Below are positions 2,378 to 27,409 of a DNA stretch of 29,013 nucleotides, piece by piece. Position 1 is the stretch's first letter. Each line of letters opens with the position of its first letter. This stretch comes from a virus, in IMG/VR virus record IMGVR_UViG_3300021440_000094, positions 1 through 29,013 of that record; one strand, 5' to 3'. A program made the translations under genes and the position numbers. The notes under the pieces were generated by a model. That model worked only from the letters and a program-made list of their open reading frames with translations, was not told where the DNA came from and did no database searches.

Positions 2378-2390
2378 CTCCGTAGCATCC
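2378..2390 (+). promoter_or_regulatory. CTYCSTAGCAT element, copy 1
   Basis: CTCCGTAGCATCC lies between the MuF stop and the protease gene, 26 nt before ATG 2417. It is one of six + strand copies of an 11-mer in the window. Here the downstream gene has its own Shine-Dalgarno sequence, so this copy would act at transcription rather than translation. TAGCAT could be a -10 hexamer; GTGACG 15 nt upstream is a poor -35. Function is inferred only. Confidence 0.4.
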
Positions 2391-2416
2391 GCCAGCAACT
2401 CGACCAAGGGTTGCAC

Positions 2417-3709
2417 ATGGCTGCAAGGAAACGTGTTCACCTTCTGACGGCGGTCAACGCCAGCGCCGTATCGAAGGATGGCGGGAAGTACATCATCCGC
2501 GGCGTCTGCGGGGCGACCGACGACCTCGTGATGAACGGGATGCTCTACCCGGGCGACCAGCTGGCCGCCGCGGCGCCGGGGCTGAACGGCAAGCCGGCAC
2601 CGGCCGGGCATCCGAAGGACTCCGGCGGGCGCTTCATCAGCGCCACGAACGGCGAGGCCCTGCTGTCGGCCTACATCGGCTCGATCTGCACGAACGCGCG
2701 CCACGAGGGCGGCCGGACGCTGGTCGATGTGGTCGTCAACGAGAAGCAGGCGCGGGCGAACGACGCTGGTGCAGCGCTGGTCGATCGCCTCGACGCCGCG
2801 ATCGCCGGCACGAACGCCGAGCCGATCCACGTCTCGACCGGCCTGATGTGCGAGGTCGTCAACGCCGCGGGAGAGTCGCGCGGCAAGAAGTACAGCCGGA
2901 TCGCCGCGAACATCGCCTACGACCACCTCGCGATCCTGCTGAACGACCAGGGGGCCGGAACGCCAGCCGATGGCGTCGGGATGTTCCTGAACGCTGCTGG
3001 GCATGAAGAGGCTGTCGAGGCAGGGCAGATCAGCGATCAGCCGGAAGACAAGCGAAGCGCCGGCCTGAAGCGCTGGCTCCTGCGCCTGCTCGGCAACGCC
3101 TCCGGCGACGTGAGTTTCGACGCGATCAGCTCGGGCCTCTACGCGCTGATGCCCGAAGGCGCATGGCTGCGCGACGTCTTCGACCGCTATGCCGTCTGGA
3201 CCGACGCACAGGGCCAGATGTGGAAGCAGGACTACTCGGTCAGTTCGACCGGCTCCGTAGCATTTTCCAGTGACCCGGTCATGGTGACCCGCCGGGTTGA
3301 ATACCAAGAGGTCACCAACTCCCGAAAGGACGACGACTCCATGAAGCCCCAGATCCTCGCCGCGCTCAACGCGGCCGGCATCAAGACGGACGGCCTGAGC
3401 GACGACGATCTGCTGGCCGCGTACAACTCTTTCGTTCGCAAGCCGGTCGAGGTCAAGCTCGACGCCGCGAACAGCAAGATCGCCGAGCACGAGGCCGCCG
3501 CTCGTGCCGCGGAAGAGCAGGAGGTCACCGCGCTGGCCACCGCGCTCGCCGTGAACTCGTCGCTCACGGTCGACGACCTGAAGAAGCTCGGCAAGGCCCG
3601 CCTCGTCGATCTGAAGGCCAAGGCCGCGCCGGTCATCACCGGCAACAGCGGCGGCCAGCCGGCCGACGAGTTCGCCGGCTACGACATGAACGCCGACCTC
3701 ACCAAGTAA
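2417..3709 (+). CDS. DUF2213-type capsid maturation protease fused to scaffold
   Basis: A 430-residue protein. ATG 2417 is preferred over TTG 2411 because AAGGG at 2406-2410 is correctly spaced to it. Residues 1-200 match DUF2213 prohead proteases: GHP (His65), HVSTGL (Ser140) and YDHLAIL (His170) are plausible catalytic His-Ser-His residues of the herpesvirus-assemblin type, but this assignment is by motif only. Residues from about 309 are an acidic, Ala/Lys/Glu-rich, probably coiled-coil segment typical of scaffold. Such proteins template capsid assembly and then cleave scaffold and coat. It directly precedes the decoration and coat genes, as in other phages. A nested start for the scaffold part is listed separately. 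Confidence 0.85.
   Translation: MAARKRVHLLTAVNASAVSKDGGKYIIRGVCGATDDLVMNGMLYPGDQLAAAAPGLNGKPAPAGHPKDSGGRFISATNGEALLSAYIGSICTNARHEGGRTLVDVVVNEKQARANDAGAALVDRLDAAIAGTNAEPIHVSTGLMCEVVNAAGESRGKKYSRIAANIAYDHLAILLNDQGAGTPADGVGMFLNAAGHEEAVEAGQISDQPEDKRSAGLKRWLLRLLGNASGDVSFDAISSGLYALMPEGAWLRDVFDRYAVWTDAQGQMWKQDYSVSSTGSVAFSSDPVMVTRRVEYQEVTNSRKDDDSMKPQILAALNAAGIKTDGLSDDDLLAAYNSFVRKPVEVKLDAANSKIAEHEAAARAAEEQEVTALATALAVNSSLTVDDLKKLGKARLVDLKAKAAPVITGNSGGQPADEFAGYDMNADLTK
3253..3263 (+). promoter_or_regulatory. CTYCSTAGCAT element, copy 2 (inside protease gene)
   Basis: CTCCGTAGCAT occurs within the protease coding region, 77 nt before the possible internal scaffold start at ATG 3341. The following bases (TTTTCC) depart from the CCC seen at most other copies. 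It could drive extra scaffold mRNA, or be a chance match in coding sequence; the 11-mer match itself is exact to the consensus. Confidence 0.3.
3341..3709 (+). CDS. Possible nested in-frame scaffold protein (Nu3-like start)
   Basis: ATG 3341 is in frame with the protease gene and would give a 122-residue protein identical to its C terminus. AAGGA at 3326-3330 lies 10 nt upstream, a usable ribosome binding site. The predicted product begins MKPQILAALNAAGI, looks like an independent N terminus, and is mostly helical and rich in Ala, Glu and Lys with a likely coiled coil. In lambda, scaffold Nu3 is made from an in-frame start within protease gene C, so the arrangement has a precedent. This is a prediction from the ribosome site and composition; the fused product alone is also possible. 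Confidence 0.4.
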   Translation: MKPQILAALNAAGIKTDGLSDDDLLAAYNSFVRKPVEVKLDAANSKIAEHEAAARAAEEQEVTALATALAVNSSLTVDDLKKLGKARLVDLKAKAAPVITGNSGGQPADEFAGYDMNADLTK

Positions 3710-3721
3710 GGAGCCGACAAC

Positions 3722-4174
3722 ATGGCAGGCAACCGCATTGTCCGCAGCGCCGACGAGTGCATCCGGACCATCACCGACCGCACCGTCTCCGGTGCGCTTC
3801 TCCCCGCGACCGGCGTCTTCGTCGGTGCGACCTCCCTGACGCAAGCCGCTGCCCCGACCGGCGGCCGGCTCGCGCTGCTCGCGAACCGCGACTACTTCGG
3901 CAACTGGCTCGACTCGACCGACCCGCTGCTGACGCCGTACGCCTCCGGTGACTCGGGCGTCGCGATCATGCTCGAGCCGGACCTTGAGGTGTCCTGGGCG
4001 ATGGCCGCGGGCACCTACACGAACGGGCAGGAGCTGACCGTCGGCGCCTCGGGCCGCCTGACGGCTGCCGCGACCACGAACGTCGTCGTCGCGTACTACG
4101 ACCAGGCCGGCGCGACGCTGACCGCCGGCCAGATCGCCGACGTGTGCATCGCGAACTACTACACCAAGGCCTGA
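3722..4174 (+). CDS. Probable capsid decoration/stabilisation protein
   Basis: A 150-residue protein from ATG 3722 with a strong AAGGAG at 3709-3714. It is Ala/Thr/Gly-rich with low Lys content, alternating hydrophobic residues and no membrane segment, consistent with a small all-beta structural protein. It has no motif I can name. The slot between protease/scaffold and major capsid gene is where gpD-like or cement proteins are usually encoded, and the C-terminal half (EVSWAMAAGTYTNGQELTV) looks like a beta-barrel decoration fold. The role is inferred from position and composition. The good ribosome site suggests high expression, as needed for a protein present in hundreds of copies. Confidence 0.6.
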   Translation: MAGNRIVRSADECIRTITDRTVSGALLPATGVFVGATSLTQAAAPTGGRLALLANRDYFGNWLDSTDPLLTPYASGDSGVAIMLEPDLEVSWAMAAGTYTNGQELTVGASGRLTAAATTNVVVAYYDQAGATLTAGQIADVCIANYYTKA

Positions 4175-4200
4175 CGGCTGATCCACAGGAGAACAGGACC

Positions 4201-5205
4201 ATGTTCCGCTTCACCGACATTCAGGCCGCCGCGATCCTCGCCGCGCGCCGCTCGTTCAACGAGGACTCCGCAGCCCTGCAGGCCAACATCGCCCGCCGCG
4301 GCGAGGTGGTCGGCAACTCGATCGCGATCCCGGTCGACGCCTGGCGCCGCATCGATCAGCGCGCGCAGCTGATCGCGCGCAGCCGGCTCTCCGTTTTCAA
4401 CGCGCTCGCCGCCGCGTCGACCATCCCGGTGTCGATCGGTGATCTGGTGAACTACTACCCCCAGATCAGCGATTCGAACGACGTGACCGTCACCATGGAC
4501 GGGCGCAACTCGGGCAAGGCCGATCAGGCGAACGTCGCCTACGTCGGCACGCCGGTCCCGCTGGTCGCGACCGCGGCCCGCTTCGGCTGGCGCCAGATGG
4601 CCGTGATGATGAAGGGCGGCGGCGGCATCGACCTCGCCACCATCACCAACGGCCAGCGCAAGGTCGCCGAGAAGCTCGAGGACATGGCCCTGAACGGCCT
4701 GTCGAGCATCGTCGTCGGCGGATCGACGATCTACGGCCTGCGCAACCTGCCGCAGCGCAACACGGGCAACCACGGATTCGCGCTGGCGACCACGGCCACC
4801 GGTGCGAACTGGCTGACCGCCTTCACGCAGGCGATCAACCTGGCGATCGGCGACAACAACTTCGGCAAGGTGACCTTCTTCGTGAACTACGGCGATTACG
4901 TCGCCGCGGACACGAAGGACTACGCCGCGAACTACCAGGGCACGATTCTGCAGCGCCTGAAGGCGATCAACTCGGTGCAGGACATCATCCCGGCATCGTC
5001 GGTCCCGGCGAACGAGATCCTCGGCGTGGCCGACCTCGGCATGGGCGAGTGGGGCGGCATCCTGCAGGCCATGCCGCTGACCACGCGGCCCCAGGCGCGC
5101 AGCAACCCGGAGGACGACTACACCTTCCAGATGATGGCTGCCGCAGCGCCCCAGCTGCGCTACGACTTCTCGGGACAGTCGCCCTTCGTGCATCTGAGCT
5201 TCTGA
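4201..5205 (+). CDS. Major capsid protein (HK97 fold)
   Basis: A 334-residue protein. ATG 4201 is chosen over the earlier in-frame start because AGGAG at 4187-4191 precedes it by 9 nt and the upstream frame overlaps the decoration gene. Order (protease, decoration, this gene, connector), length and content support the coat protein. Features include an N-terminal helical arm, the segment MALNGLSSIVVGGSTIYGLR resembling the loop region of encapsulin-like coat proteins, and a conserved-looking C terminus (RYDFSGQSPFVHLSF). I think it belongs to the family annotated DUF6260 or encapsulin-like, but cannot confirm that without a search. It would form the icosahedral shell. Confidence 0.85.
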   Translation: MFRFTDIQAAAILAARRSFNEDSAALQANIARRGEVVGNSIAIPVDAWRRIDQRAQLIARSRLSVFNALAAASTIPVSIGDLVNYYPQISDSNDVTVTMDGRNSGKADQANVAYVGTPVPLVATAARFGWRQMAVMMKGGGGIDLATITNGQRKVAEKLEDMALNGLSSIVVGGSTIYGLRNLPQRNTGNHGFALATTATGANWLTAFTQAINLAIGDNNFGKVTFFVNYGDYVAADTKDYAANYQGTILQRLKAINSVQDIIPASSVPANEILGVADLGMGEWGGILQAMPLTTRPQARSNPEDDYTFQMMAAAAPQLRYDFSGQSPFVHLSF

Positions 5206-5216
5206 GGACCAGGACC

Positions 5217-5414
5217 ATGAAGGTGACTATCACCCATCTGAAGGCCCCGTGGCCGGCCGGAGCCGTCGTCGGCTCGGTCGTCGAAGTCGGCGACGCAATT
5301 CCGGCCTGGGCGCTCGGCAAGTGCGTGCCCGCGGCCGACGACGCCGAGGTGACCGTGCCCCCGGCCGCGGAAGCGACCGAGGCGCCGGCCACCGGCAAGA
5401 AGGCGAAGGGCTGA
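5217..5414 (+). CDS. Small head-region protein of unknown function
   Basis: A 65-residue protein starting at ATG 5217, eleven bases after the coat gene stop, with AGGACC repeats upstream giving a weak ribosome site. The N-terminal half (VTITHLKAPWPAGAVVGSVVEVG) is beta-like and would form a small barrel; the C-terminal third is an Ala/Pro/Lys/Glu-rich disordered tail. Proteins of this look are common just after the coat gene in proteobacterial siphophages, but no function is established to my knowledge. It may bind head or connector surfaces. Confidence 0.65.
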   Translation: MKVTITHLKAPWPAGAVVGSVVEVGDAIPAWALGKCVPAADDAEVTVPPAAEATEAPATGKKAKG

Positions 5415-5415
5415 C

Positions 5416-5784
5416 GTGATCACCCCCACGCAGGCGAAGCAGTACCTCGACCTGACGCTCGGCGTCGCCGTCCCCGACTTCATCGTCGCGGCGGCGGTCG
5501 ACAAGGTCGAGGCTGCCGAGCCTGCGATGGTGGCGGCCGGCTACAGCGAGTCCGACCAGGTGCTCGTGCAGAGCATGGCGGTCGCGCTGATCGCCTCCGC
5601 CGGTGATCCGCGGCGAATCCAGTCCCAGGGAGCGCCTTCGGGAGCCTCCCGCTCGTTTAAGAACAGCGACGCCGCGCTCACCGCGCTGCGGCGCGCGCTG
5701 GCGGCGCTCGACACCGCCGGCACCGTGGCCGCGCTTGTCGGCCCTGACCCGTCCCGAACCACGATGCTGATCGTGACCTGCTGA
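5416..5784 (+). CDS. Head-tail connector/adaptor (DUF7370, gp6-like)
   Basis: A 122-residue protein starting at GTG 5416, one base after the previous stop, indicating coupling. It is helical, with an N-terminal TPTQAKQYLDLTLGVAVPDFIV segment and a diagnostic IQSQGAPSGASRSF stretch around residues 68-81, which I recognise from DUF7370-type phage connectors. Such proteins form a ring below the portal to extend the DNA channel. In most relatives the head-closure gene follows directly; here about 5.8 kb of fibre-like genes intervene, which is the main oddity of this locus. Confidence 0.7.
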   Translation: MITPTQAKQYLDLTLGVAVPDFIVAAAVDKVEAAEPAMVAAGYSESDQVLVQSMAVALIASAGDPRRIQSQGAPSGASRSFKNSDAALTALRRALAALDTAGTVAALVGPDPSRTTMLIVTC

Positions 5785-5815
5785 CGCAGGCGCAGCACTC
5801 ACCGGAGCCCCTTGC

Positions 5816-6307
5816 ATGGCTGCAACTGTCCAACTCGTCGAGAAGAACGGCGCCGGAGGCACGACGACCGACAAGACCGGCGGCACCATCCGCTTCAAGA
5901 CGGCCGACAACTCCACGGTCGACCTCGTCGCCCCGATCGTCAAGCCGGCGTCGGGCTCCAACTGGTCCTTTGAGAAGTGGCTGCGGCTGAACATCACCGG
6001 CGGCACGTTCTCCCAGATCACCAACGTCGGCGTCTACAGCGACGGCTCCAGCGGCCTGGGCACCGGCATCAACATCTGGGCGAAGGCGGTCACGACCTAC
6101 GCCACGCCGGCCCTCGGCACGGCGAGCACCGGCTACGCCAACTTCTTCACCTTCGTCACCGGCTCGCGGCTGAGCCTCGGCGCCGGCCCGTTCACGGGCA
6201 CCGGCGAGAAGGGCGACCACTGCGTGATGCTGGCAGAGGTCACCTCGACCGCATCGGGAGGCCTCACGCCGAGCGAGACGCTCACGCTCGCCTGGGACGA
6301 GATCTGA
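5816..6307 (+). CDS. Structural protein of unknown role (beta-rich)
   Basis: A 163-residue protein from ATG 5816, with GGAG at 5805-5808 as a ribosome site. It is rich in Thr, Gly and Ser, poor in Cys, and lacks membrane segments. Aromatic residues recur in a pattern typical of beta sandwiches (SNWSFEKWLRLN, then GINIWAKAV, then GYANFFTFV). It is the first gene of the fibre-like block between connector and head closure. A decoration or base-of-fibre role is plausible because it sits beside head genes, but that is inference. No family recognised. Confidence 0.6.
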   Translation: MAATVQLVEKNGAGGTTTDKTGGTIRFKTADNSTVDLVAPIVKPASGSNWSFEKWLRLNITGGTFSQITNVGVYSDGSSGLGTGINIWAKAVTTYATPALGTASTGYANFFTFVTGSRLSLGAGPFTGTGEKGDHCVMLAEVTSTASGGLTPSETLTLAWDEI

Positions 6308-6310
6308 CGC

Positions 6311-6721
6311 ATGGCCGCACCTGATCTGGCCGCCGTGCAGGACGCGCAGCCATTCGAGATCGTCGACGCCGATGGCGGCGCCAAGGTCGCGAGCAACGGG
6401 CGCGTGAGCCTCACCGTGCTGCCGGACGTGCAGGCCGACGGCGGCGTGCGCCTCTTCAAGCGCCGCGCGATCAAGGGCATCAACGTGCGCCCGGCCGGCG
6501 AGGTCGCGCTGCCGCTGCTGAACCAACTGGCCGGCGAGCTCGTGGCCGACCTCGGCATGCCGTCCTTCGCGGTGGCCGACCGGCTGCGCGCGATCGCCGA
6601 CCAGGTCGTGCCGACACCGCCGCAGCGCGTCGAGTGGGTCGTCGCGGAGGTCGACGGCCGGCTGCGCGTGTACTTCGACGGCGATCGCGTCATCGTCACC
6701 GGCCTGGACCTGAATCCATGA
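6311..6721 (+). CDS. Structural-region protein of unknown function
   Basis: A 136-residue protein from ATG 6311, three bases after the previous stop. It is acidic with a mixed alpha/beta look, a central helical region (PLLNQLAGELVADLGMPSF) and a beta-like C terminus ending in VDGRLRVYFDGDRVIVTGLD. No signal peptide, membrane segment or metal motif. The stop codon overlaps a 15-codon reading frame leading to the Gly-rich gene, so it is probably co-translated with the fibre block. It might be a chaperone or an attachment protein for the fibres that follow, a guess from position only. Confidence 0.55.
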   Translation: MAAPDLAAVQDAQPFEIVDADGGAKVASNGRVSLTVLPDVQADGGVRLFKRRAIKGINVRPAGEVALPLLNQLAGELVADLGMPSFAVADRLRAIADQVVPTPPQRVEWVVAEVDGRLRVYFDGDRVIVTGLDLNP

Positions 6722-6765
6722 CTCTTCATCAACGCATGGTCCGCGCTGCGCGGCGCGTGGGGTAA
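6718..6765 (+). CDS. Possible 15-codon linking ORF
   Basis: ATG 6718 overlaps the preceding stop (ATGA) and runs 15 codons to TAA 6763-6765, three bases before the next start. The peptide MTLHQRMVRAARRVG is basic. It may serve only to carry ribosomes to ATG 6769, or be the remnant of a longer gene. Evidence is the exact stop-start overlap; no function is implied. Confidence 0.25.
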   Translation: MTLHQRMVRAARRVG

Positions 6766-6768
6766 GCA

Positions 6769-8115
6769 ATGCTCATCGGCGCCGGAACTTCCGCAGTCCT
6801 CCAGCTTGTCACCTCGGCGGCAGGGACAATCCACGCCAGCGGCTCAGTCGTGGTGGTGGACCAATCGACCCCGCCGGTGGTGCAGGGCTCGACCACGGCC
6901 CCCTTCACGCCTGCGGCCATCTCGACCGCGACGACGACGCCGCTGGTGACGGGCATCGCGTCGCGCATCACGCGGCTGATCGAGTGCTCGATCCGCAACG
7001 CGCACGCCAGCGTCGCCAATGACGTGACCGTGCAGCGCACGGACGGCACGAACACCGACACGGTGATCAAGGCCACGCTGAACGCGGGCGAGGCGCTGGT
7101 CTACACCGGTTCGACGTGGATCCACTACGACGCGAACGGCGTCGTCAAGGTGAGCAACCAGCCGCCGGACGTGCAGACGTTCACCTCGGCCGGCGCGCAG
7201 ACCTGGACGAAGCCGACCGGGTTCACGCCGAAGGTCGTGGAGGTGTGGGCCTGGGGCGGTGGTGGCGGTGGTGGCGGCGGTGGCTCGCTCGCCACGGCTG
7301 TCGTCTGCAAGGGCGGCGGCGGTGGTGGTGGAGGGGCGTGCGTCGTGCGCAGGTTCGCGGCTGCCGATCTTCCGGCGACCGTCACCGTCACCGTCGCGGC
7401 GGGCGGCACGTCGGGCGCTGGTGGCACGGCCGGCGCTGCAGGGTCCACTGGCGGCATCGGCGGGACGACGACGTTCGGCACCTACGTCAACGCCTTCGGC
7501 GGAGGTGGCGGTGCTGGTGGCGCGATCTCGGCTGCCGTGACTGGCGGTGGCGGCGGCGGCGGCGTCGGAACGTCTGCTGCATCGGGTTCTACGACTGGCG
7601 GCACCGGCGGATCACCGACAGCGGGCTCGCTCGGGGCTGGTGGGCAAGGCGTCACCGGTTCCACCGGCGTCAGCACGACCCAGAGCGCCGAATACGGCGG
7701 GGCTGGCGGCGCAGGCATTGCGGGCACGCCTGTGGCGGGCTCGCTCGGCGGGTCGTCCATCTTCGGCGGAGCCGGTGGCGGTGCGGGCGGTTCGCACAGC
7801 GCAACGCCTGCGAACATCGCGGGCGGTGCTGGCGGCGCCGGCAACTCCTACGCCCACGGCGGCGGCGGCGCGGTCGGAACCGATGGCGCAAGCCCAACGG
7901 CTGGAACAGCCGGCACCGCCCGCACGACCAGCGCCTTCGGCTCGGCCGGCGGCGGCGGCGGCACTACCGTCACGGCCTCGACCGCTGGTGCAGCAGGCGG
8001 CGCAGGCGGCGCGGGCGGACACGGCGGCGGTGGCGGCGGCGCGGGCATGAATCCGGGCGTCGGCGGCGCAGGCGGCGTCGGCGGCGTCGGCATGTGCATC
8101 GTCTACTCGTGGTGA
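6769..8115 (+). CDS. Glycine-rich fibre/adhesin protein
   Basis: A 448-residue protein from ATG 6769. Residues 1-130 form a beta-like head domain (SIRNAHASVANDVTVQRTDG and surroundings). From residue 135 the pattern TFTSAGAQTWTKPTGF, VEVWAWGGGGGG, then ACVVRRFAAADLPATVTV matches the glycine-rich domain found in phage tail fibres. The remaining ~250 residues are mostly Gly, with Ala, Ser and Thr in runs, ending GMCIVYSW. Such Gly-rich stretches can pack as polyglycine-II bundles, as known in gp38-type adhesins of T-even phages. The product is likely a surface fibre or receptor-binding tip. Its location amid head-neck genes suggests a head or neck fibre, which is inference. Confidence 0.75.
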   Translation: MLIGAGTSAVLQLVTSAAGTIHASGSVVVVDQSTPPVVQGSTTAPFTPAAISTATTTPLVTGIASRITRLIECSIRNAHASVANDVTVQRTDGTNTDTVIKATLNAGEALVYTGSTWIHYDANGVVKVSNQPPDVQTFTSAGAQTWTKPTGFTPKVVEVWAWGGGGGGGGGGSLATAVVCKGGGGGGGGACVVRRFAAADLPATVTVTVAAGGTSGAGGTAGAAGSTGGIGGTTTFGTYVNAFGGGGGAGGAISAAVTGGGGGGGVGTSAASGSTTGGTGGSPTAGSLGAGGQGVTGSTGVSTTQSAEYGGAGGAGIAGTPVAGSLGGSSIFGGAGGGAGGSHSATPANIAGGAGGAGNSYAHGGGGAVGTDGASPTAGTAGTARTTSAFGSAGGGGGTTVTASTAGAAGGAGGAGGHGGGGGGAGMNPGVGGAGGVGGVGMCIVYSW

Positions 8116-8118
8116 CCG

Positions 8119-8988: not shown

Positions 8989-8990
8989 CC

Positions 8991-11249
8991 ATGGCATTCG
9001 TCCAGAAGACCAACTCGGGCGCGCTGCAGACCGCTTCCAACTCGGTCAGCACCGCGGCATTCGCGTCGAGCGTCGCGGCGGGCAATTTCCTCTGGGTGAT
9101 CGCCACCTGGGGCTCGCTGGGCACGCCGAGCAGCGTCACGATCAACGGCCAGGCCGCGACCGCGCTGCTCACCTCGCCGGTGCAGGACACCGGCAACAGC
9201 CAGTCGGCGAACATTTACTACGTCGTCAACGCCACGGGCGGCAGCACGACGGGCGCGACGATCAACTTCGCAAGCGCCACCAGCTTCGTCGGGCTGATCG
9301 CGCACGAGCACAGCGGCATCGCCACCAGCGCCGCGACGGACGGCAACGGGTCGATCTACCTCGTCGCCGGCACAAGCGCCACCACGTCGAGTTTCACGAC
9401 GGCGGCGTCGGGCGACGAGATCATCGTCGGCTTCATCGACTCGTCCGGCACGACCACCGCGGTCAACACGCCGACCGCGACGAGCTCGACGCTGACGATC
9501 CGCGACACGACCGGTGCCGTGGAGATGTCGTCGGCGTCGGGCACGCAGACCGCATCGGGCGCCAGCACCGCGACGTGGACATGGACGGGTGTCTCGAGCG
9601 CGCTGGTGGTGGCCGGCGCGTTCAAGGTCTCGGGCGGTGGCGGGTCGTCGCCGACCATCACCACCACCAGTACGGCGAACGCGCCCTACCAGTCGTCGCT
9701 GACGATCACGGGGAACAACTTCGGCGTCACGCAGGGCGCCGGAACCGTCACCATTGGCGGCACGGCGCAGACGGTCACGGCGTGGAGCAACACGTCGATC
9801 ACGGTCACGGTCGCGCGCGGGGCGAACAAGTACGGCTCGGCGCTGAACATCGTCGTCACCGAGAACGGCGGGCTGTCGTCGTCGCCCTACTCGCTGGCGA
9901 GCATCCAGCCGCAGGCGGGCTGGTCCTACGTCACGATCGGCACGCCGAATCCGAACCTGACGAAGCGGCTCTCGGCCACGCCGGACATCGCCTCGGGCGA
10001 CCAAATCGCCTACGACAACCTGTCGGGCGCGGTCATCGTCAACGACGACGGGTCGTTCTCCGCCTCCACCGCGGTGACGGCCTTCACCTTCGAGGTCTGG
10101 TCGAGCGGCTGGGGCACGTCGGCGATTCAGACGGTCTACCCGGATACCTACCCGGCGGCCGACTTCCTGTTCGTCGACCAGGCCGCCAAGGTCTCGGAGT
10201 TCCGCGCGCTGCTGGACCCGAGCACCTGGTTCGGCCCGATCAGCGTCGCCAAGTGGTTCGCCGACGAGCTCGTGCAGACGGCCGGGGCAACGCAGGTCAG
10301 CATCACGACCAGCCTGTCGGCCGCGGTCCAGATCGCGAACGCCGCGACGGCCTCGATCGCGGCGGCGGTGCAGACCTCGCCGAGCGCGACGGCCAGCATC
10401 GCAGCCGCTGTGCAGCAGGCACGCACGGCGACGGCGCAGATCGACGCAGCGGCGCAACTGGCGCGCACCGCGACGGCGAGCATCGACACTGCTGTCCGCG
10501 CTTCCGGCTCGCAGTCGGCGAGCCTCGCCGCAGCGGTGCAGGCGGCGAACTCGGCCTCGGCCAGCATCGGCGCCGCGCTGCAGATCGCCACCTCGGCCGC
10601 GACCAGCATCACCGCGCTGGTGCAGGCGCAGACCCAGGCCACGGCCTCGATCAGCCTCCAGGTGCAGGCCGGCTTCAGCCAAACGGCGAGCACCGACGTC
10701 CTGGTGCAGCAGGCGCGCAGCGCGCTCGCGACGATCGACGCCGCGGTGCAGGTCGCCCGCAGCGCCGCGGCTAGCCTGGAGGCCGCAGTCCAGACCGCAC
10801 GCAGCGCCACGGGCAGCATCGACCTGCCGGTGCAGGCCGGGCGCTCGAGCGCGGCATCGATCGACCTGCAAGTTCAAGCTGGCTCGACCGCCTCGGCGTC
10901 GATCGCTGCCGCGGTGATCGCTTCCGCCTCGGCTTCGGCCTCGCTGACCCTGGCGGCGCAGGCCGCGCGCACCGCTCTCGCGTCCGTTGACGCCGCCGTC
11001 TCCGTCCAGCGCCTGATCACCGCCTCGATCCAGGCCGCCGTCTTCGGAGGCGTCAGCCTCGCCGCCGGGTTCGACCTGTTCGTGCTCGGCGACACGCCAG
11101 CCGGGCCGGACGCCTTCTGGCGCTACGACGTCCCATCCGACGGCGGCCTGCGCTACGACGTCCCGCAGGCCTCCCTACGCTTCGACGTGCCAGACGAGTC
11201 GCTCCGCTTCGACGTGCCTAGCATCGGCGCCGGAATCACCATCACCTGA
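8991..11249 (+). CDS. Long repeat fibre with IPT/TIG domain
   Basis: A 752-residue protein from ATG 8991, two bases after the previous stop. Residues 1-215 form a Ser/Thr/Ala-rich beta domain. Residues 218-305 look like an IPT/TIG Ig-like domain (LTITGNNFGVTQGAGTVTIG). Residues 310-435 are another beta region. Residues 440-705 are nineteen 14-residue repeats of type ASIDAAVQxARSAT. Residues 710-743 carry four copies of a LRYDVP-type unit. No membrane segment or signal peptide. The architecture is that of an elongated fibre with a modular N terminus and a repeated shaft. Its place between connector and head closure is odd; a head- or neck-attached fibre is the best guess. Confidence 0.7.
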   Translation: MAFVQKTNSGALQTASNSVSTAAFASSVAAGNFLWVIATWGSLGTPSSVTINGQAATALLTSPVQDTGNSQSANIYYVVNATGGSTTGATINFASATSFVGLIAHEHSGIATSAATDGNGSIYLVAGTSATTSSFTTAASGDEIIVGFIDSSGTTTAVNTPTATSSTLTIRDTTGAVEMSSASGTQTASGASTATWTWTGVSSALVVAGAFKVSGGGGSSPTITTTSTANAPYQSSLTITGNNFGVTQGAGTVTIGGTAQTVTAWSNTSITVTVARGANKYGSALNIVVTENGGLSSSPYSLASIQPQAGWSYVTIGTPNPNLTKRLSATPDIASGDQIAYDNLSGAVIVNDDGSFSASTAVTAFTFEVWSSGWGTSAIQTVYPDTYPAADFLFVDQAAKVSEFRALLDPSTWFGPISVAKWFADELVQTAGATQVSITTSLSAAVQIANAATASIAAAVQTSPSATASIAAAVQQARTATAQIDAAAQLARTATASIDTAVRASGSQSASLAAAVQAANSASASIGAALQIATSAATSITALVQAQTQATASISLQVQAGFSQTASTDVLVQQARSALATIDAAVQVARSAAASLEAAVQTARSATGSIDLPVQAGRSSAASIDLQVQAGSTASASIAAAVIASASASASLTLAAQAARTALASVDAAVSVQRLITASIQAAVFGGVSLAAGFDLFVLGDTPAGPDAFWRYDVPSDGGLRYDVPQASLRFDVPDESLRFDVPSIGAGITIT
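10308..11105 (+). repeat. Nineteen tandem 14-residue (42-nt) repeats
   Basis: Residues 440-705 of the long fibre divide without gaps into 19 units of 14 residues, consensus ASIDAAVQxARSAT. Positions 3, 5 and 7 are hydrophobic (Ile/Leu, Ala/Leu, Val) and position 8 is almost always Gln in the first 14 units. Units diverge at DNA level, so this is an old protein repeat, not a recent DNA duplication. Alternation suggests beta strands in a solenoid or trimeric shaft; 14 is also two heptads, but Pro and Gly in several units argue against a coiled coil. Confidence 0.85.
11118..11219 (+). repeat. Four RYDVP-type repeats at fibre C terminus
   Basis: Residues 710-743 read WRYDVP, LRYDVP, LRFDVP, LRFDVP, spaced by 10, 9 and 9 residues. 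They follow directly on the 14-residue repeats and end eight residues before the C terminus apart from a short hydrophobic tail. They may cap the shaft or bind a tip protein. Confidence 0.7.
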
Positions 11250-11258
11250 GAGAACGCG

Positions 11259-11591: not shown

Positions 11592-11615
11592 CGGTCCCCG
11601 CGCGCGGCGGGCGCG

Positions 11616-11629
11616 CTCCGTAGCATCCC
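11616..11629 (+). promoter_or_regulatory. CTYCSTAGCAT element, copy 3 (8 nt before ATG)
   Basis: CTCCGTAGCATCCC lies in the 43-nt gap before head-closure ATG 11635. TAGCAT ends exactly 8 nt before the ATG and there is no Shine-Dalgarno sequence in between. If TAGCAT is a -10 hexamer, transcription would start at or within about 2 nt of the start codon. It marks the right edge of the fibre block. Confidence 0.45.
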
Positions 11630-11634
11630 GCGGC

Positions 11635-11979
11635 ATGTCCTCGATCGCCTCCTGGTCCTACACCGCCACCGCCACGCACTGGCCGGTGACGGGCATCGAC
11701 GACTGGACGCGCAAGGCCACCTTCGGCGCTCCGGTCACGTTCCCGTGCGACTACACCGCGCAGGCGACCAAGATGACCGACGACCGCGGCGAGGAGTTCG
11801 TGTCGCGCAACATCCTCTTCACCGAGCGCTCGAGCATTAAGCGCGGCGACTGGGTTCTGATCGGCGCCTCGACGGCGGCCGACCCGACGACCGTCGCCGA
11901 TGCGATGGAGGTTCGGTCGGTGGCGCGCTTCGCCGACACCTTCGAGCGCAGCGCCGACGATTGGAAGGTAGCGACGTAA
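11635..11979 (+). CDS. Head-closure / head-tail joining protein (putative)
   Basis: A 114-residue protein from ATG 11635. It is beta-rich with the pattern typical of small neck proteins: a FGAPVTFPCDYTAQATKMTDDRGEEF region followed by a compact barrel-like stretch (KRGDWVLIGAST). Position immediately before a gp10-like gene and a tail terminator makes a head-closure or stopper protein (lambda gpFII or SPP1 gp16 type) the most likely identity. No Shine-Dalgarno sequence precedes the ATG; instead a CTYCSTAGCAT element sits 8 nt upstream, so expression may start anew here after the fibre block. Confidence 0.65.
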   Translation: MSSIASWSYTATATHWPVTGIDDWTRKATFGAPVTFPCDYTAQATKMTDDRGEEFVSRNILFTERSSIKRGDWVLIGASTAADPTTVADAMEVRSVARFADTFERSADDWKVAT

Positions 11980-13139: not shown

Positions 13140-13159
13140 TCCTGAAGGAGCACTGAACC

Positions 13160-13507: not shown

Positions 13508-13520
13508 CGCCTGGCGTCCC

Positions 13521-16791: not shown

Positions 16792-17261
16792 TGGCCGACG
16801 CCTATCCGTTCCACCTGCGCACGATCCTCGCCGCCTCGAAGAAGCGCAGCCAGGCGGCCAGCTTCACCGTTTCGGAGCCGCGCCGCGGCTACGCCTACGT
16901 TCAGGCGGTCGGCACCGATGTCCCGCTGCTGTGGGACGTTTCCTTCGCCTTCACGCGCGCCGAGGCTCCGGTGTTCCGCCTCTGGTTCAAGCTGAACACG
17001 CAGAGCGGCCTGAAGGAGTTCACGCTGCCGATCCGCACCGAGTTCGGCCTGGTGACCTACACGTGCCGCTTCCTGTCCGACAAGCTGATGGACACCGGCG
17101 AAGCGGGCAACGTCTTCACCTACAGCGCGACGATCATGGCGCGCGCCGAGGTGATCCCGGATGAGTATCTGGTCGCGGCCGACCTGATCGTCGGGCTGCC
17201 GCAGTGGGAGGAATACCGGCGCATCCTCGACCTCGTGATGACGCAGGAAATGCCGGTCTGA
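16791..17261 (+). CDS. Minor tail protein (distal tail region)
   Basis: A 156-residue protein from ATG 16791, sharing one base with the tape measure stop (TGATG). It starts with ADAYPFHLRTILAASKKRSQ and has aromatic-rich beta strands (SFAFTRAEAPVFRLWFKLN). Position between tape measure and DUF1833 gene corresponds to lambda gpM, which forms part of the distal tail. No catalytic or membrane features. The function is inferred from order, which is strongly conserved in phages with this tail type. Confidence 0.65.
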   Translation: MADAYPFHLRTILAASKKRSQAASFTVSEPRRGYAYVQAVGTDVPLLWDVSFAFTRAEAPVFRLWFKLNTQSGLKEFTLPIRTEFGLVTYTCRFLSDKLMDTGEAGNVFTYSATIMARAEVIPDEYLVAADLIVGLPQWEEYRRILDLVMTQEMPV

Positions 17262-17264
17262 GCG

Positions 17265-17747
17265 ATGGATAAGCGCGTCTTTTGGGCCACGAAGTCGCCC
17301 CTGCCAGAGTTCCACGCGATCGCCTTCGAGCACACGTCGTTTGAAGCGCCGATCCGCCTCGTCGCGAACCAGTTCGCCGAGGTCACGCTGGCCGGCAACG
17401 TGCATACGCCCGCGGGAATGGCGATCAAGCCGCCGGAGCAGAAGGGCGACGTGCAGCCGCGCCTCGTGCTGTCCTTCCCGCGCCAGGAAGTCGGCATGGA
17501 GTTCAAGCGCCAGCTGCGCCGGGTCTACGCCGCCGGAAGCCGTGATCCCATCTCGGTGACGTACTCGATCTTCCTCGGTGACACCGACGCGCCTGCGATC
17601 GTGTGGGAGCTGTATGTCGCCGAGCAGGGCGGCGTTCAGTTCACCGACACCGCTGTGCAGGTCACGGCGACCGACGACAACCCGATGCGCCGCAATGTCG
17701 CGCTGATCTACGATCCGAGCGTCTTCACGGGGCTCGAGAACATCTGA
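17265..17747 (+). CDS. Minor tail protein, DUF1833
   Basis: A 160-residue protein from ATG 17265, three bases after the previous stop. Segments FHAIAFEHTSFEAPIRLVAN, a stretch ending in RLVLSFPR and the C-terminal AIVWELYVAE match the DUF1833 pattern. In lambdoid-like tails DUF1833 lies in the place of gpL and acts in the distal tail where the central fibre attaches. It is followed by a 31-nt gap with a CTYCSTAGCAT element and then the NlpC peptidase, so this gene ends one tail sub-operon. Confidence 0.75.
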   Translation: MDKRVFWATKSPLPEFHAIAFEHTSFEAPIRLVANQFAEVTLAGNVHTPAGMAIKPPEQKGDVQPRLVLSFPRQEVGMEFKRQLRRVYAAGSRDPISVTYSIFLGDTDAPAIVWELYVAEQGGVQFTDTAVQVTATDDNPMRRNVALIYDPSVFTGLENI

Positions 17748-17759
17748 CCCGAAGGCCCG

Positions 17760-17773
17760 CTTCCTAGCATCCC
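17760..17773 (+). promoter_or_regulatory. CTYCSTAGCAT element, copy 4 (8 nt before ATG)
   Basis: CTTCCTAGCATCCC fills the gap before the NlpC gene; TAGCAT ends 8 nt before ATG 17779 with no Shine-Dalgarno sequence between. CTGACC lies 15 nt upstream of TAGCAT as a weak -35 candidate, though it includes the upstream stop codon. Same geometry as copies 3 and 6. Confidence 0.45.
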
Positions 17774-17778
17774 TCGCG

Positions 17779-18192
17779 ATGCAGGGCCTACTGTCTCCCG
17801 ATGCCTTCGCCGCCCGCATGGTCGGCGTCCCTTGGCGCCGCTGGCGCTCCGACTTTGAGGCATGCGACTGCTACGGCCTGGTGATCCTGTACTTCCGCGC
17901 GGTGCTTGGCGTCGACCTTGGCGAAGTTCCGGAGACCGGCATCGCTGAAGGCTTCGACCAGATCCGCGGCTGGCAGCAGTGCGGCATGGCCGAGGCCGGC
18001 GCGGTCGGCTTCATGACCTGGCGCAACGGGGCGCCGACGCACTGCGGGGTCGTGATGCCGGGCGGCCGGCTGCTGCACGCGCAGGAGGGCTACCCGATCC
18101 CGCTCAATGGGTCGGTGAAGGTGTCGCGGCTGGCGGTGCTGCAGCGCGCGTGTCCGGACCTGCGCTTCTACCGGTACGCGCCCACATGCTGA
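17779..18192 (+). CDS. NlpC/P60 tail assembly peptidase (gpK-like)
   Basis: A 137-residue protein from ATG 17779. CDCYGLV at residues 29-35 gives the catalytic Cys31, and PTHCGVV gives His88, the expected NlpC/P60 pair; LLHA near residue 99 is the usual third motif. In lambda, gpK has this domain and works at tail tip assembly, possibly also cutting peptidoglycan on entry. This version lacks the JAB domain of gpK and is the NlpC part alone. It overlaps the tail tip gene by 7 bases. No Shine-Dalgarno sequence is seen; a CTYCSTAGCAT element sits 8 nt upstream. Confidence 0.85.
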   Translation: MQGLLSPDAFAARMVGVPWRRWRSDFEACDCYGLVILYFRAVLGVDLGEVPETGIAEGFDQIRGWQQCGMAEAGAVGFMTWRNGAPTHCGVVMPGGRLLHAQEGYPIPLNGSVKVSRLAVLQRACPDLRFYRYAPTC

Positions 18193-20822
18193 TCATCTTG
18201 AACGACCCGACCGGTGCGACGGGCCTGCGCCGGCATCAGCTCGACCTCGGCGTCAGCCTGCAGGAGAACATCGAGCGCCACCTGAGCGGCGGCGCCGACG
18301 CGGTGCTGCGGATCAACGGCGTGAAGGTCGACCCGCTGTCCGATCCGCGGCTGGACGTCCCGCCAGGGCCGAGCGACACCGTCGTCGTGGAACTGCGGCC
18401 GGCCGGCTTCGACCCGGTGACGGTGACCTACATCGCTGCGACGGCGGCCACCGCGACGGCGATCTACACCTACGTCTCGATGCGCCGCATGACCGGCGCG
18501 CAGGACGCCGCCGTCGGCAAGGAGAGCCCAAACAACTCGCTGACCGGCCAGACCAACGTCGCGCGGGCCTACCAGGCGGCGCCAGACGTGTACGGCTATC
18601 GCCGGCTGTGGCCCGACCTGATTCAGTCGTCGGTCGTGGAGTACGTCGATCACGTGAAGTACGTGACCGAGTGGCTCTGCCTGAGCCGCGGCATCGGTGA
18701 CATCACCTCGGTCCAGTACGCCGACACGCCGATCGAGGACATCGGCGGCTCGAGCTTCGAGGTGTTCGAACCGGTGGCGCCTTCCGGTGGATACCCGGAG
18801 GATGGCCAGACGCTGATGCGCGACGTCTTCGAGACGTTCGCCTCCGACGAGGTCAACGGGCAGGAGATGACCTATGCCGCGCCGTACCCCGCGGTCACGA
18901 AGAGCGGAACCTTCAATGCGGGATCGGGTGCGACATCCTTCACGATCAACATCCCCGACGGCTCTGACCTTGCCGACCTGAAGGCTGCGGCGCCGAGCGG
19001 CACGGCGACCGTGAACTTCACCTACGGCGTCGGGCCGAGCACGTTCAACGAGACCTGCACGGTCCTGTCGTTCTCGGTGGCATCCGGCAACGCCACATTC
19101 ACCTTCAGCAGCTCGGCGTGGGGCTCGGCCGAGAGCGGATCGTCAACCTTCACGATCACGCGGCTCGGCACCGTTTACACCGTCCTCGGGCCGTACACGC
19201 TGCAGACGCAGAGCGACCGGCTCTGGTGGAACGTCGTCTACTTGCGCGGCCTCGTCGGTACGGTGAACTTCGAGGCGCAGTGGTGGCAGATCGACGCGCT
19301 CGGCGTCGAGGTGCCAGGCACGCGCGAGATCTACAACTTCGGGCACACGGCAGCCACGTACGACCAGCGCTTCTTCACGCAGAAGGTCACGCCGCTGGCC
19401 GGCTTCGGGCGCTATCGCATCCAGTTCCGCCGGACCTCGCTGCAAGTCGATTCGAGCGGCGCCGACGTGGCGAAGCTCGAGGAGCTCTACGCGGTTCGCT
19501 ACTACGAATCGAAGACGCTGCCAGGCGTCACGGTGGCGCGCATCACGACGAAGGCGACGAACTCGGCGACAGGCTTCTCAGACCGGAAGTTCAATCTCCG
19601 GTGGCTGCGCCACGTGCGCGAGCTCGACACCGACGATCTGAGCCCGTCGCGGAACTTCGCGCGCGCGATGGCGCACCTCTGGACGATCGCGGGGAACCCT
19701 ATCAGCGGCATCGACACCGACGCGCTACGTGCCATCAATGCAGAGCACGGCGAGGACTCTCCGCTGCTGCGCTTCGACGGCAGCCTCGACGATGCCGACA
19801 TGAGCCTTGGCGAGCGCATGGCCTTCATCGCCGACACGGCGCGCGTCTTCATCTGGCGCGACGGCGTGAAGTGGACCTTCGCGCGCGATCAGTACCGGCC
19901 GACGCCCGATGCGCAGTTCGACTACCGCAACCTTGCCGCGAACGCGTCTCCCGCGCAGGCCTTCTCGTCGGTGATGCCGGCCTCTACCGATGGCGTCGAG
20001 GTCGAGTTCGTCGACGAGACGACTCAGCAGAAGAAGAGCTATGTCCGTTACTCAGTCGTCGGCGGCAAGCTGTCGCCCGGCCAGTCTCGGAACCCGCGCA
20101 AGGTGCGCCTACCGGGCTGCGCAACGCTGGCACAGGCAGACAACCGCGCGCAGCTCGAGGCGAACCGGCTGCTCTTTCAGCGCGAGTTCGTCAACGACAC
20201 GGCGCTGTCGGATGCGATGGATCTGGGCATCGGATCGACGGTGCGCTGGGTCGATCCTTCCGACTTTGGCGGTGACGGGCTGCAGGCCGGCGAGGTGCTC
20301 AGCATCACCGGCAACGTCATCACGACGTCGGAGGTGCTCGACTGGGGCAGCGAGACCACCGGCCGAATGATCTTCACCGGCGAGGACGGCCGGCGCCTGA
20401 CGCCGACGACGCAGTGCATCAAGGTCGACGGCGGCGTGCAACTTGCCGTCGTGCCGCCTGGCCTCTACGTGGCCGACGAGTCCCGCCAGTGCGGCAGCCG
20501 CTACGCCTTCGCGGTCGGCCTCACGAAGCAGGAGATCGAGACCGCCGGCCTTTACACGCTGAATTCGCTCAGGCCCGAGGGAGAGGGGAGGGTGTCCATC
20601 TCCCTAGCATCCCTCGACATTCGCATCTATGCCGGCGACGGCGTGGTTGCGGCGGATACCGAGGACGAGGCGGTGATCGTGCCGGTGCTGCCTGAACTCA
20701 GCTACTCGGCGACCTACGGCGGCGCATCAGCGACTGACTTCGTCGGCACCGACATCGACTCCGGTGGATCTTCGTCGACGAGCTTCGCTGGCCTTGATCT
20801 TGAGTACGGGGGAACTGCATGA
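18186..20822 (+). CDS. TipJ-like tail tip / host specificity protein
   Basis: An 878-residue protein from ATG 18186, overlapping the NlpC gene. Residues 1-80 are beta-grasp-like (INGVKVDPL region), resembling lambda gpI or the N terminus of tip proteins. A hydrophobic Ala/Thr stretch lies near residues 80-100. The middle contains tail-hub-type segments, and the C-terminal part the repeated strands of gpJ-like proteins. Residues 239-330 look like an inserted beta domain. The end has two related units (TDFVGTDIDSGG, TSFAGLDLEYGG). It should form the trimeric tip that organises the spikes. Copy 5 of the TAGCAT element is inside its 3' end. Much shorter than lambda J (1132 residues), with receptor-binding probably moved to the spikes. 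Confidence 0.82.
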   Translation: MLIILNDPTGATGLRRHQLDLGVSLQENIERHLSGGADAVLRINGVKVDPLSDPRLDVPPGPSDTVVVELRPAGFDPVTVTYIAATAATATAIYTYVSMRRMTGAQDAAVGKESPNNSLTGQTNVARAYQAAPDVYGYRRLWPDLIQSSVVEYVDHVKYVTEWLCLSRGIGDITSVQYADTPIEDIGGSSFEVFEPVAPSGGYPEDGQTLMRDVFETFASDEVNGQEMTYAAPYPAVTKSGTFNAGSGATSFTINIPDGSDLADLKAAAPSGTATVNFTYGVGPSTFNETCTVLSFSVASGNATFTFSSSAWGSAESGSSTFTITRLGTVYTVLGPYTLQTQSDRLWWNVVYLRGLVGTVNFEAQWWQIDALGVEVPGTREIYNFGHTAATYDQRFFTQKVTPLAGFGRYRIQFRRTSLQVDSSGADVAKLEELYAVRYYESKTLPGVTVARITTKATNSATGFSDRKFNLRWLRHVRELDTDDLSPSRNFARAMAHLWTIAGNPISGIDTDALRAINAEHGEDSPLLRFDGSLDDADMSLGERMAFIADTARVFIWRDGVKWTFARDQYRPTPDAQFDYRNLAANASPAQAFSSVMPASTDGVEVEFVDETTQQKKSYVRYSVVGGKLSPGQSRNPRKVRLPGCATLAQADNRAQLEANRLLFQREFVNDTALSDAMDLGIGSTVRWVDPSDFGGDGLQAGEVLSITGNVITTSEVLDWGSETTGRMIFTGEDGRRLTPTTQCIKVDGGVQLAVVPPGLYVADESRQCGSRYAFAVGLTKQEIETAGLYTLNSLRPEGEGRVSISLASLDIRIYAGDGVVAADTEDEAVIVPVLPELSYSATYGGASATDFVGTDIDSGGSSSTSFAGLDLEYGGTA
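20600..20613 (+). promoter_or_regulatory. CTYCSTAGCAT element, copy 5 (inside tail tip gene)
   Basis: CTCCCTAGCATCCC lies within the tail tip gene, about 205 nt before the first tailspike start. The codons there (Leu-Ala-Ser) do not require this exact sequence. Eight bases after TAGCAT is ATT rather than ATG. It could supply extra tailspike mRNA. Confidence 0.35.
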
Positions 20823-22984
20823 CGACGGTACTGCGCCGCAGACAAGAACGGGTCGACACGGCTGCCAACTGGGCCAGCGCGAACCCGGTCCTGCTCGACG
20901 GCGAGCTCGGCTATGACAAGACCGCCGACCGGATGAAGGTCGGAGACGGCGTGTCGGCCTGGTCCGCGCTGGACTTCGTCGATGCCTTCAATCGGTCCTT
21001 CCAGGTCAACGTGCGCGACCCCGTCTTCGGCGGATGCAAGAACGACCGCAGCGTTGACGTGTCGAGCGTCTTCCAGACCGCGCTCGACGCGCTGCGGTCC
21101 CCGATCAGCGTCGGCGGATCCGGCAGCTTCAACTATCAGAACTGGTACGGCGGAACGCTGCATGTCCCGGGCGGCATCTACAAGCTGTCGAGCACGATCG
21201 GCCAAACCAGCGCGACCGGCTTCGACCGCGTCGGTGTGCGCATCAAGGGCGACGGGATGCGCACGACGGTGCTCTACACCGACACGCTCGAGCGCGTTCT
21301 GGACTTCGCGGCCTCGGGCATGTTCGTCGCTTTCGAGGACTTGTCGATCGTCGTCTACACGAACCTCTCGGCGTCCACCGCCGCGAAGATCGTGAACCTC
21401 GTCGGAGTGCTCGGCTGGTACATGAACCGGGTCGAGGTCTACGTCCGATCCGGAGGCAACGAGAACCTCGGCGTCATGCACGTGTACGCGCAGGACAGCT
21501 ACTACGGCGTGATGAACGCCTGCAAGACGACGACCTTCGCGCAGCAGCTTCCGCAAGGCGTGAAGCATGCCATCAGCGGCAGCACGACCTTCGCGCGCCT
21601 GAGCGGATGCCACATCTACTCGAAGAACAACAATGCCCTCGTCGTGCGCGATCACACCTGGGGCAACCCGCACCGCTGCATGACGCTGGAGGACGACGAT
21701 GGCGTCCTCGTCGATGGTGGATCGGCCGAGTGGTTCAACCAGGGCTTCGGCTTCATCGGCAATAGCTCGCTGAACGTGGTCCGGCATGTCCGATTCGAGG
21801 CGCACCCGGAGGTCTCGCACAAGTACCTTGGAAACGACCAGCACTGGCTCGCCAAGTTCGGCGAGCGCACCTTCGACAACGTGGTCGACCTCCCGAACGC
21901 GAACAACCTGCCGGTCGACAACACGCGCAACGGCATCGTCGACCTCAGCGGGTCAAACATCTACCGCGTCGCCGGTCTCGCGAACACGCAGATCTCGCGG
22001 AGCATGATGGCGAACGCGAGCGGATCGGCTGCGCACAGCACGGTCTGGACGACCTCGGGCACGGCCACGATCACCGATGTCACCGCGGACCTGCCGCCTG
22101 ACCAGTCGATCGTCGGTGCGATGCAGCTGGCGGTGACCGGCAACATCGCGGGAGCGACACGCGCGGCCTTCGCTGTCGACCCGCAGCGCCTGAACGCGTG
22201 GACCTTTCGCTACTGGGCGAAGCGCACCGCCGGCCAGCAGCAGATGCGCTACATGGTCGAGAGCAACGTCGCGGGCCAGTACCTGGTGACCGACCTCAGC
22301 CGGTCCGCGATCACGGCGCACCTGCTGAACGGCAAGACGATCAGTCTGTCCGGCGCGACGTGGTCAGGCGGCGTCGCAACCTACACGACCGACCAGGACA
22401 ACCACTGGCTCGTCACGGGCCAGAACGCGGGCGTCTCGGGCATGACGCCGGCCGGCTACAACACCGCCGGCCAGGTGACGGTCCTGAACGCCACGCAGTT
22501 CACGCTCCCGGTCGCGAGCAACCCGGGCAGCAACGGCGGGGCCGGTACCGGCACGCGCTTCAGCTATGACAGCGAATACACCAACATCGGCGAATGGCAC
22601 GAGGTGAAGGGCGTGTTCAGCGTGCGCCGCGTGGTGACGGGCGTCTCCGCGACTGGCTCACAGGTCACCTACACCTTCGACGGCCCGCACCGCATTCCGA
22701 ACAATGTCGGCTGTCAGGTCAAGGTCTGGGGCCTGTCGATCGCCGGCTACAACGGCACCTTCAACGTCGTGAGCACGACCAGCACGACGGTCACGGTCAC
22801 GAACGCCACCACCGGCACGCCGACGGCCGGCTTCGACGGCGTGGCGCTGGGCTTCGGCGGCTACTTCGGCAACGTGACGGTTCGGCTCGGCAACGAAGGG
22901 TCAGGCTCTGCGACCTGGCTGATCGCAGGGTTCAGCCAGATCCCGGGCAGCGATCGCCGCATCATGCTCAGCTATTCGAACTGA
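20819..22984 (+). CDS. Tailspike 1: Mtd-type N terminus, beta helix, interrupted C-terminal domain
   Basis: A 721-residue protein whose ATG 20819 overlaps the tip gene stop. Residues 1-55 (RRRQERVDTAANW, LLDGELGYDKTADRMKVGDG) match the N-terminal attachment domain of Mtd-like proteins. Residues ~60-390 have the short-strand pattern of a pectin-lyase beta helix (TLHVPGGIYKLSS, then GVRIKGDGM). The C-terminal beta-sandwich, likely carbohydrate binding, starts near residue 395 and is interrupted twice by related modules (497-583, 606-678). Such spikes bind and often cut surface polysaccharide. The substrate cannot be read from sequence. Mtd-type start does not imply a diversity-generating element; no reverse transcriptase is present in the window. 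Confidence 0.8.
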   Translation: MTTVLRRRQERVDTAANWASANPVLLDGELGYDKTADRMKVGDGVSAWSALDFVDAFNRSFQVNVRDPVFGGCKNDRSVDVSSVFQTALDALRSPISVGGSGSFNYQNWYGGTLHVPGGIYKLSSTIGQTSATGFDRVGVRIKGDGMRTTVLYTDTLERVLDFAASGMFVAFEDLSIVVYTNLSASTAAKIVNLVGVLGWYMNRVEVYVRSGGNENLGVMHVYAQDSYYGVMNACKTTTFAQQLPQGVKHAISGSTTFARLSGCHIYSKNNNALVVRDHTWGNPHRCMTLEDDDGVLVDGGSAEWFNQGFGFIGNSSLNVVRHVRFEAHPEVSHKYLGNDQHWLAKFGERTFDNVVDLPNANNLPVDNTRNGIVDLSGSNIYRVAGLANTQISRSMMANASGSAAHSTVWTTSGTATITDVTADLPPDQSIVGAMQLAVTGNIAGATRAAFAVDPQRLNAWTFRYWAKRTAGQQQMRYMVESNVAGQYLVTDLSRSAITAHLLNGKTISLSGATWSGGVATYTTDQDNHWLVTGQNAGVSGMTPAGYNTAGQVTVLNATQFTLPVASNPGSNGGAGTGTRFSYDSEYTNIGEWHEVKGVFSVRRVVTGVSATGSQVTYTFDGPHRIPNNVGCQVKVWGLSIAGYNGTFNVVSTTSTTVTVTNATTGTPTAGFDGVALGFGGYFGNVTVRLGNEGSGSATWLIAGFSQIPGSDRRIMLSYSN

Positions 22985-23003
22985 GGGACTGACGCGAGGG
23001 GCT

Positions 23004-23017
23004 CTTCCTAGCATGCC
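23004..23017 (+). promoter_or_regulatory. CTYCSTAGCAT element, copy 6 (8 nt before ATG)
   Basis: CTTCCTAGCATGCC lies between the two tailspike genes; TAGCAT ends 8 nt before ATG 23023. CTGACG 14 nt upstream of TAGCAT is a possible but too-close -35. No Shine-Dalgarno sequence precedes the ATG. Confidence 0.45.
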
Positions 23018-27408: not shown

Positions 27409-27409
27409 G

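Follow-up and report, generated by a model that had tools for sequence, protein, structure and literature searches.

A putative family of -10-only late promoters with the motif CTYCSTAGCAT in temperate siphophages of GC-rich hosts

Late promoters of the Mu type are multiple and are activated by C. The late promoters of phage T4 have a -10 element only, and the T4 proteins gp33 and gp55 bind the clamp via short terminal motifs (PMC2988020, PMC7892883). The cited T4 review describes the mechanisms of replication-coupled late transcription as either confined to T4-related phages or far removed from those of other bacterial systems. In M. tuberculosis (PMC3898074) and in Deinococcus (PMC12340547), TANNNT boxes with no -35 element drive leaderless genes.

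The stretch of DNA analysed here (29,013 nt; the window) is a fragment of a siphophage-like temperate phage; it carries genes for the head and the tail, and its 5' end is inside the portal gene. We argue from its sequence and from the sequences of its relatives that CTYCSTAGCAT is likely a family of -10-only late promoters.

The motif in the window

A sequence-only reading of the window had listed six exact copies of CTYCSTAGCAT. A pattern scan recovered all six on the + strand, at 2378, 3253, 11616, 17760, 20600 and 23004 (Table 1), with CCG after the first copy and CCC, CCC, CCC and GCC after the last four. The expectation by chance had been put at far less than one copy; indeed, shuffles gave a mean of 0.01 and a maximum of 1, while the - strand had no matches. 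With a tolerance of two mismatches the count in the window dropped to the background level, so the signal is sharp. The six sites scored from 16.4 to 19.5 bits. They were followed by a seventh TAGCAT at 11219 (13.4 bits) and by the next best match at 9.7 bits. The seventh hexamer has the prefix GTGCC; the earlier statement that all TAGCAT hexamers noticed carry the same prefix thus does not hold exactly.

At three of the sites (11616, 17760 and 23004) the distance from the motif end to an ATG is exactly 8 nt. The Shine-Dalgarno (SD) match of these ATGs did not exceed 2 nt, which ranks them with the poorest starts examined in the window. A counterpart of site 17760 was found at the same place in L072. 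Site 2378 is situated 28 nt 5' of its ATG; the RNA start is predicted near A2397, giving a leader of ~20 nt with AAGGG before the ATG. The leader sequence (CAGCAACTC...AAGGGTTGC) is conserved in L034, L035 and L041. The remaining sites are intragenic. Site 3253, inside the protease/scaffold gene, is 77 nt 5' of the next plausible start and presumably feeds the internal scaffold start ATG 3341 (SD AAAGGA). Site 20600, inside a tail gene ending at 20822, is 208 nt 5' of the next plausible start. The suggestion that the copies mark module boundaries therefore stands for part of the sites and fails for these two of the six.

Just 5' of the head-closure block, the window encodes a large TIG-domain protein (8991-11249) that had no PHROG match.

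Table 1. Putative promoter elements and neighbouring genes of the window (first twelve rows), with examples of the terS-upstream family from other loci (last row)
Feature	Position	Strand	Remarks
Putative late promoter element CTCCGTAGCAT, 5' of protease/scaffold gene	2378..2388	+	motif match
Head protease with C-terminal scaffold, phrog_760	2417..3709	+	
Putative intragenic promoter element in protease gene, GGC TCC GTA GCA TTT	3253..3263	+	codon-level conservation in relatives
Weaker candidate element GTGCCTAGCAT, 5' of gene 11259	11214..11224	+	13.4 bits
Putative promoter element, 8 nt before ATG 11635	11616..11626	+	motif; leaderless mRNA predicted
phrog_797 protein, head-closure family	11635..11979	+	head closure of the sequence-only reading
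Putative promoter element, 8 nt before ATG 17779	17760..17770	+	motif; leaderless mRNA predicted
NlpC/P60-like tail protein	17779..18192	+	Pfam match slightly below cut-off
Intragenic element near 3' end of tail gene, 5' of gene 20819	20600..20610	+	motif
Tail fibre/tailspike gene, Mtd_N-like N terminus	20819..22984	+	
Putative promoter element, 8 nt before ATG 23023	23004..23014	+	motif; leaderless mRNA predicted
Second tailspike, pectate-lyase-like	23023..25053	+	weak Pfam match
terS-upstream family, examples	L008:690-1148, L003:2548-2982(-), L053:66-557		about 30 more

Conservation, shape and DNA-level selection in relatives

Searching IMG/VR for the motif followed by CCC and ATG produced eight contigs. 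Contigs L002, L003, L005, L007 and L008 were relatives, with the motif at the starts of portal, tape-measure, tail-cassette or post-terminase genes. Alignments of the portal and phrog_797 proteins gave 142 loci, where the motif was present in 156 forward and nine reverse copies, confined to loci of ~55-71% GC. Among 30 whole records, 22 carried the motif, in two to seven copies each, nearly all on the late strand. The orientation seen in the window thus extended to whole relatives: the opposite strand was nearly empty, and the reversed control pattern had zero matches in the 30 records.

For a hand-picked list of GC-rich relatives, motif-less members included, we counted motifs (one mismatch allowed) at most 60 nt from gene starts and found them at 35/39 portal, 32/35 protease and 20/25 head-closure genes. 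The same count in enteric and other relatives was 0/34, 1/52 and 0/47, respectively; these relatives show an SD-like GAGGA at those starts instead of the motif.

Seedless Gibbs sampling of 108 upstream regions arrived at CTCCCTAGCATG, that is, C-T-C/T-C-C/G-T-A-G-C-A-T and then G/C, with the CTYCS extension nearly as constrained as the TAGCAT hexamer. No conserved -35 or other upstream hexamer was detected in 119 non-redundant sites, where only two motif-adjacent bases exceeded 0.2 bits. For 158 non-redundant sites, defined by the 10-bp core, offsets to the start codon were counted from the final T. An ATG was located 6-9 nt after the motif in 83 of them; the offsets of 6, 7, 8 and 9 nt had 14, 21, 44 and 4 sites, compared to 0-2 sites at neighbouring offsets. 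GTG was observed at 6-9 nt in only 4 of the 158 sites. In the sites with no near ATG, position 9 was most often occupied by A (0.42), which matches the expectation for an RNA start site. Such spacing is the geometry of a -10 box that would drive a leaderless mRNA.

The constant ATG distance at half of the sites could also be produced by a motif acting in the mRNA, as a start-associated ribosome signal. A role of this kind was suggested for the mycobacteriophage start-associated sequences (SAS), which are similarly oriented and positioned at starts (PMC3203893). However, some conserved copies are intragenic and have no start next to them, some copies have a separate SD leader, the motif is not complementary to the 16S 3' end, and sister lineages carry variants of a -10 box. 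We therefore consider an RNA-level translation signal quite improbable.

The variants are found at the same positions. In L056, L076 and L078, CTCCCTATCAT replaces the motif at the same genes, while in L119-L126 GTATATT or GTAGACT is located 6-7 nt 5' of the late-gene ATG. We see that the hexamer varies in the manner of a putative -10 box while its position stays. In the sister lineage, GTATATT/GTAGACT followed by CGCGCC(C) and ATG at the protease gene and another late gene (L119:4020, L119:12734, L120:1464, L120:10036) makes a candidate parallel set of leaderless promoters. Some of the sister-lineage sites directly follow a hairpin and T run that resemble a terminator.

Asymmetric, oriented, multi-copy sites in a temperate phage that has an integrase gene might also be repressor operators or stoperators that keep late genes off in the lysogen, like those of cluster A mycobacteriophages (PMC9283540). 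Still, a stoperator needs neither the 6-9 nt spacing to ATG nor the TANNNT core, and most sites here are within late genes; we regard this explanation as very improbable. The integrase gene itself (tyrosine integrase, 27475-28458, - strand) adjoins a tRNA 3'-end-like stretch, GGGGGTTCGAGTCCCTC (27360-27420), likely the attP core; ARAGORN found no complete tRNA there.

The intragenic site of the protease gene offers a view of selection at the codon level. It reads GGC TCC GTA/CTA GCA T, and its TCC, GTA/CTA and GCA codons were kept in 32/32 selected genes, a biased estimate since the genes were chosen for the standard form; the covariation with TATCAT is independent of this choice. In the background of these genes, computed with the motif site removed, GTA makes ~2% of Val, CTA ~2% of Leu and GCA ~12% of Ala codons. 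In L076 (TCC CTA TCA T) and L056 (TCC GTA TCA T) the amino acid differs and the lineage's own TATCAT form is kept; in L043 and L046 the site has decayed (TCC GTA TCT). Since rare codons are used, and amino acids change where the lineage uses TATCAT, we conclude that selection acts on the DNA. Site 20600 has counterparts in L118 and L179, displaced by no more than ~6 nt, and L072 has one that carries one mismatch; they are absent in L119, L126 and the enteric relatives.

Two copies are coding and the adjacent protein sequence is conserved, as would be seen if the motif were repeated by chance or driven by the protein. The probability of this explanation is negligible, however, with 0.01 copies expected, rare codons kept and amino acids altered to preserve the DNA word. 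Repetition by chance is refuted by the strand bias and by the empty reversed-pattern scan of the whole records.

In L008, an HNH-like gene (by eye, 3128-3635) between the terminase and portal genes has its own motif copy; it looks as if the portal promoter had been captured.

Among 50,697 phage records no cultured representative of the clade was found, the nearest portal being 42% identical. Plasmid matches reached ~41% at best, 369 genomes of class Gammaproteobacteria had no portal match, and the MCP as a single-sequence query retrieved no viral contigs. Searches of cultured phages and of the literature detected neither the motif nor the terS-upstream protein described below, and literature on TAGCAT/CCCTAGCAT promoters yielded nothing relevant.

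Promoter model and candidate reader

One proposal of the sequence-only reading was that TAGCAT is the -10-like part of a dedicated family of late promoters. This proposal gained support from the spacing, the strand bias, the clade-wide conservation and the absence of a -35 element, as well as from the -10 variants in sister lineages and the DNA-level selection inside coding sequence; on these grounds we infer the promoter identity and the RNA start site. The motif would be a core at about -17 to -7, with TAGCAT as the -10 hexamer (a TANNNT box) and CTYCS as a fixed upstream extension that differs from the known TGn extension. RNA would begin 7-9 nt 3' of the motif. At approximately half of the sites the start base would be the A of the ATG, making a leaderless mRNA; at the protease site it would open a short leader that contains a Shine-Dalgarno sequence, and the intragenic sites would be internal promoters for the scaffold and the tailspike. 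The family would be private to one clade, temperate siphophages of GC-rich hosts, and several of its promoters would each raise one block within a single late operon.

Such promoters could be ordinary ones, read by host RNA polymerase with a housekeeping or alternative host sigma and no phage factor, the terS-upstream protein being unrelated. This explanation falls within the late-promoter model and denies the clamp step alone; we give it a substantial probability, somewhat short of even. The TANNNT boxes of M. tuberculosis and Deinococcus speak for it, as do sister lineages without the terS-upstream protein, which use near-canonical TATATT and TATACT at the same genes. On the other hand, CTYCS shows almost the same constraint as the hexamer, unlike in a generic TANNNT box. 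Also, ten cellular genomes, which may not include the true hosts, had one ascertained match each, so the motif is no common host promoter in these genomes. A pattern scan of bacterial genomes for host promoters had 25 scattered matches, of which two, in Planctomycetota, were at gene starts; these two were taken as chance because the whole genomes have that single match each.

Comparison of gene content singled out one non-structural gene, directly 5' of terS, in the motif-bearing loci covering that region. The gene lies outside the window, and none of the examined enteric relatives that lack the motif has it. A profile search found its protein in 22 of the 30 records, namely 20 of the 22 motif-bearing ones and both with TATCAT; the other six had none. 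The two motif-bearing records without the protein (G019 and G029) are fragments whose sequence starts close to the portal, and L064, with a portal upstream sequence common to the G019 locus, has the protein. The link between protein and motif is not independent evidence, because co-occurrence within one clade may reflect one or few events.

The protein has ~130-170 aa and a conserved C-terminus, ERERxRRARQxPPKPxKKAKTR (elsewhere given as RRARQxPPKPxKAKTR). Near the N-terminus we observed QLDLF, QLSLF, QFDLF or similar; the bacterial consensus for binding the beta clamp is QLxLF (PMC4549789). The pattern Q[LFI]xLF was present in 15/34 members, compared to 5/6210 other ORFs, and a broad clamp-motif pattern in 27/34; no clamp motif was visible in several members (L005, L036, L059, L078). 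The protein had no detectable homology to gp33/gp55, three scanned members had no significant Pfam or PHROG family, two members had no match among the 50,697 phage records, and a structure model was uninformative (pTM 0.31, no Foldseek match). The motif itself occurs just 5' of 7/30 genes of the family (including L055:6927, L080, L051:7411, L047:1035 and L185), which is suggestive of positive autoregulation.

The terS-upstream protein would redirect host RNA polymerase to the motif and tether the polymerase to the sliding clamp; this tethering would couple late genes to replication, like gp33/gp55 in T4. Clamp-tethered, T4-like late transcription via this protein is a possibility that we put forward tentatively. 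A second, independently evolved clamp-coupled late system, in which a small protein of temperate siphophages bridges polymerase and host beta clamp at -10-only, mostly leaderless promoters and so confines the expression of virion genes to replicating DNA, seems to us possible, though less probable than not.

No universal sigma-like protein was found in the motif-bearing records: PF08281, PF00196, PF04542 and phrog_3282 were matched in some only, and a sigma/LuxR-type regulator was rejected as the general reader since none of the four was universal. A gp55-like sigma region 2 (PF04542) was above the cut-off in 1/26 records, in a search that a diverged gp55 analogue could escape. Small sigma-region-4/LuxR-type HTH proteins (phrog_3282 'sigma factor') are encoded 5' of the terminase genes in some relatives (L008:71-346 and L003:5635-5955(-)).

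For this large phage clade, in which no cultured member was found among the 50,697 phage records, the motif provides a late-gene code that is sharp and open to test. If the promoter reading is true, many private promoters, most of them leaderless, control the late operon, with two of these putative promoters written within protein-coding sequence and paid for in codon choice. If the clamp link is true, replication-coupled late transcription evolved at least twice.

Comparison with described systems

The Mu late operon likewise has several promoters, including one at the protease/scaffold gene. In Mu an activator site is located 5' of the -10 element, whereas none is conserved in the 119 sites here.

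The mycobacteriophage SAS (PMC3203893) are likewise short repeats, asymmetric and oriented, that are located where genes start; the motif does not have their consensus, GGGATAGGAGCCC, and is also intragenic and -10-box-like. Cluster A stoperators (PMC9283540) are likewise asymmetric, oriented and dispersed. Conversely, the sites here have a fixed ATG spacing and are mostly at late genes, and the motif is not likely a stoperator.

The leaderless promoters of Mycobacterium and Deinococcus (PMC3898074, PMC12340547) likewise have TANNNT near the ATG and no -35. Here, in contrast, we see a phage-specific fixed TAGCAT with a 5-bp extension, restricted to one clade, located mostly at late genes and with ATG nearly exclusive. 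From its sequence, the motif appears to fit the general class of leaderless TANNNT promoters, with a fixed 11-bp phage code.

The T4 late promoters (gp55/gp33/gp45) are likewise many copies of a short -10-like element before late genes, with no -35. T4 has a phage clamp-binding partner, and the terS-upstream protein with its clamp-type motif is a candidate for such a partner here. The T4 element is an 8-bp TATA box, however, whereas here it is CTYCSTAGCAT, and half of the sites predict leaderless mRNA, unlike in T4. T4 has gp55 (sigma region 2) and gp33, while no homologue of either was found here. The clamp motif here is N-terminal and of the host-beta type, unlike in T4, and a temperate siphophage would presumably use the host clamp. 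By its consensus and by the absence of a gp55 match, the motif system falls outside the T4 system, though it may work similarly.
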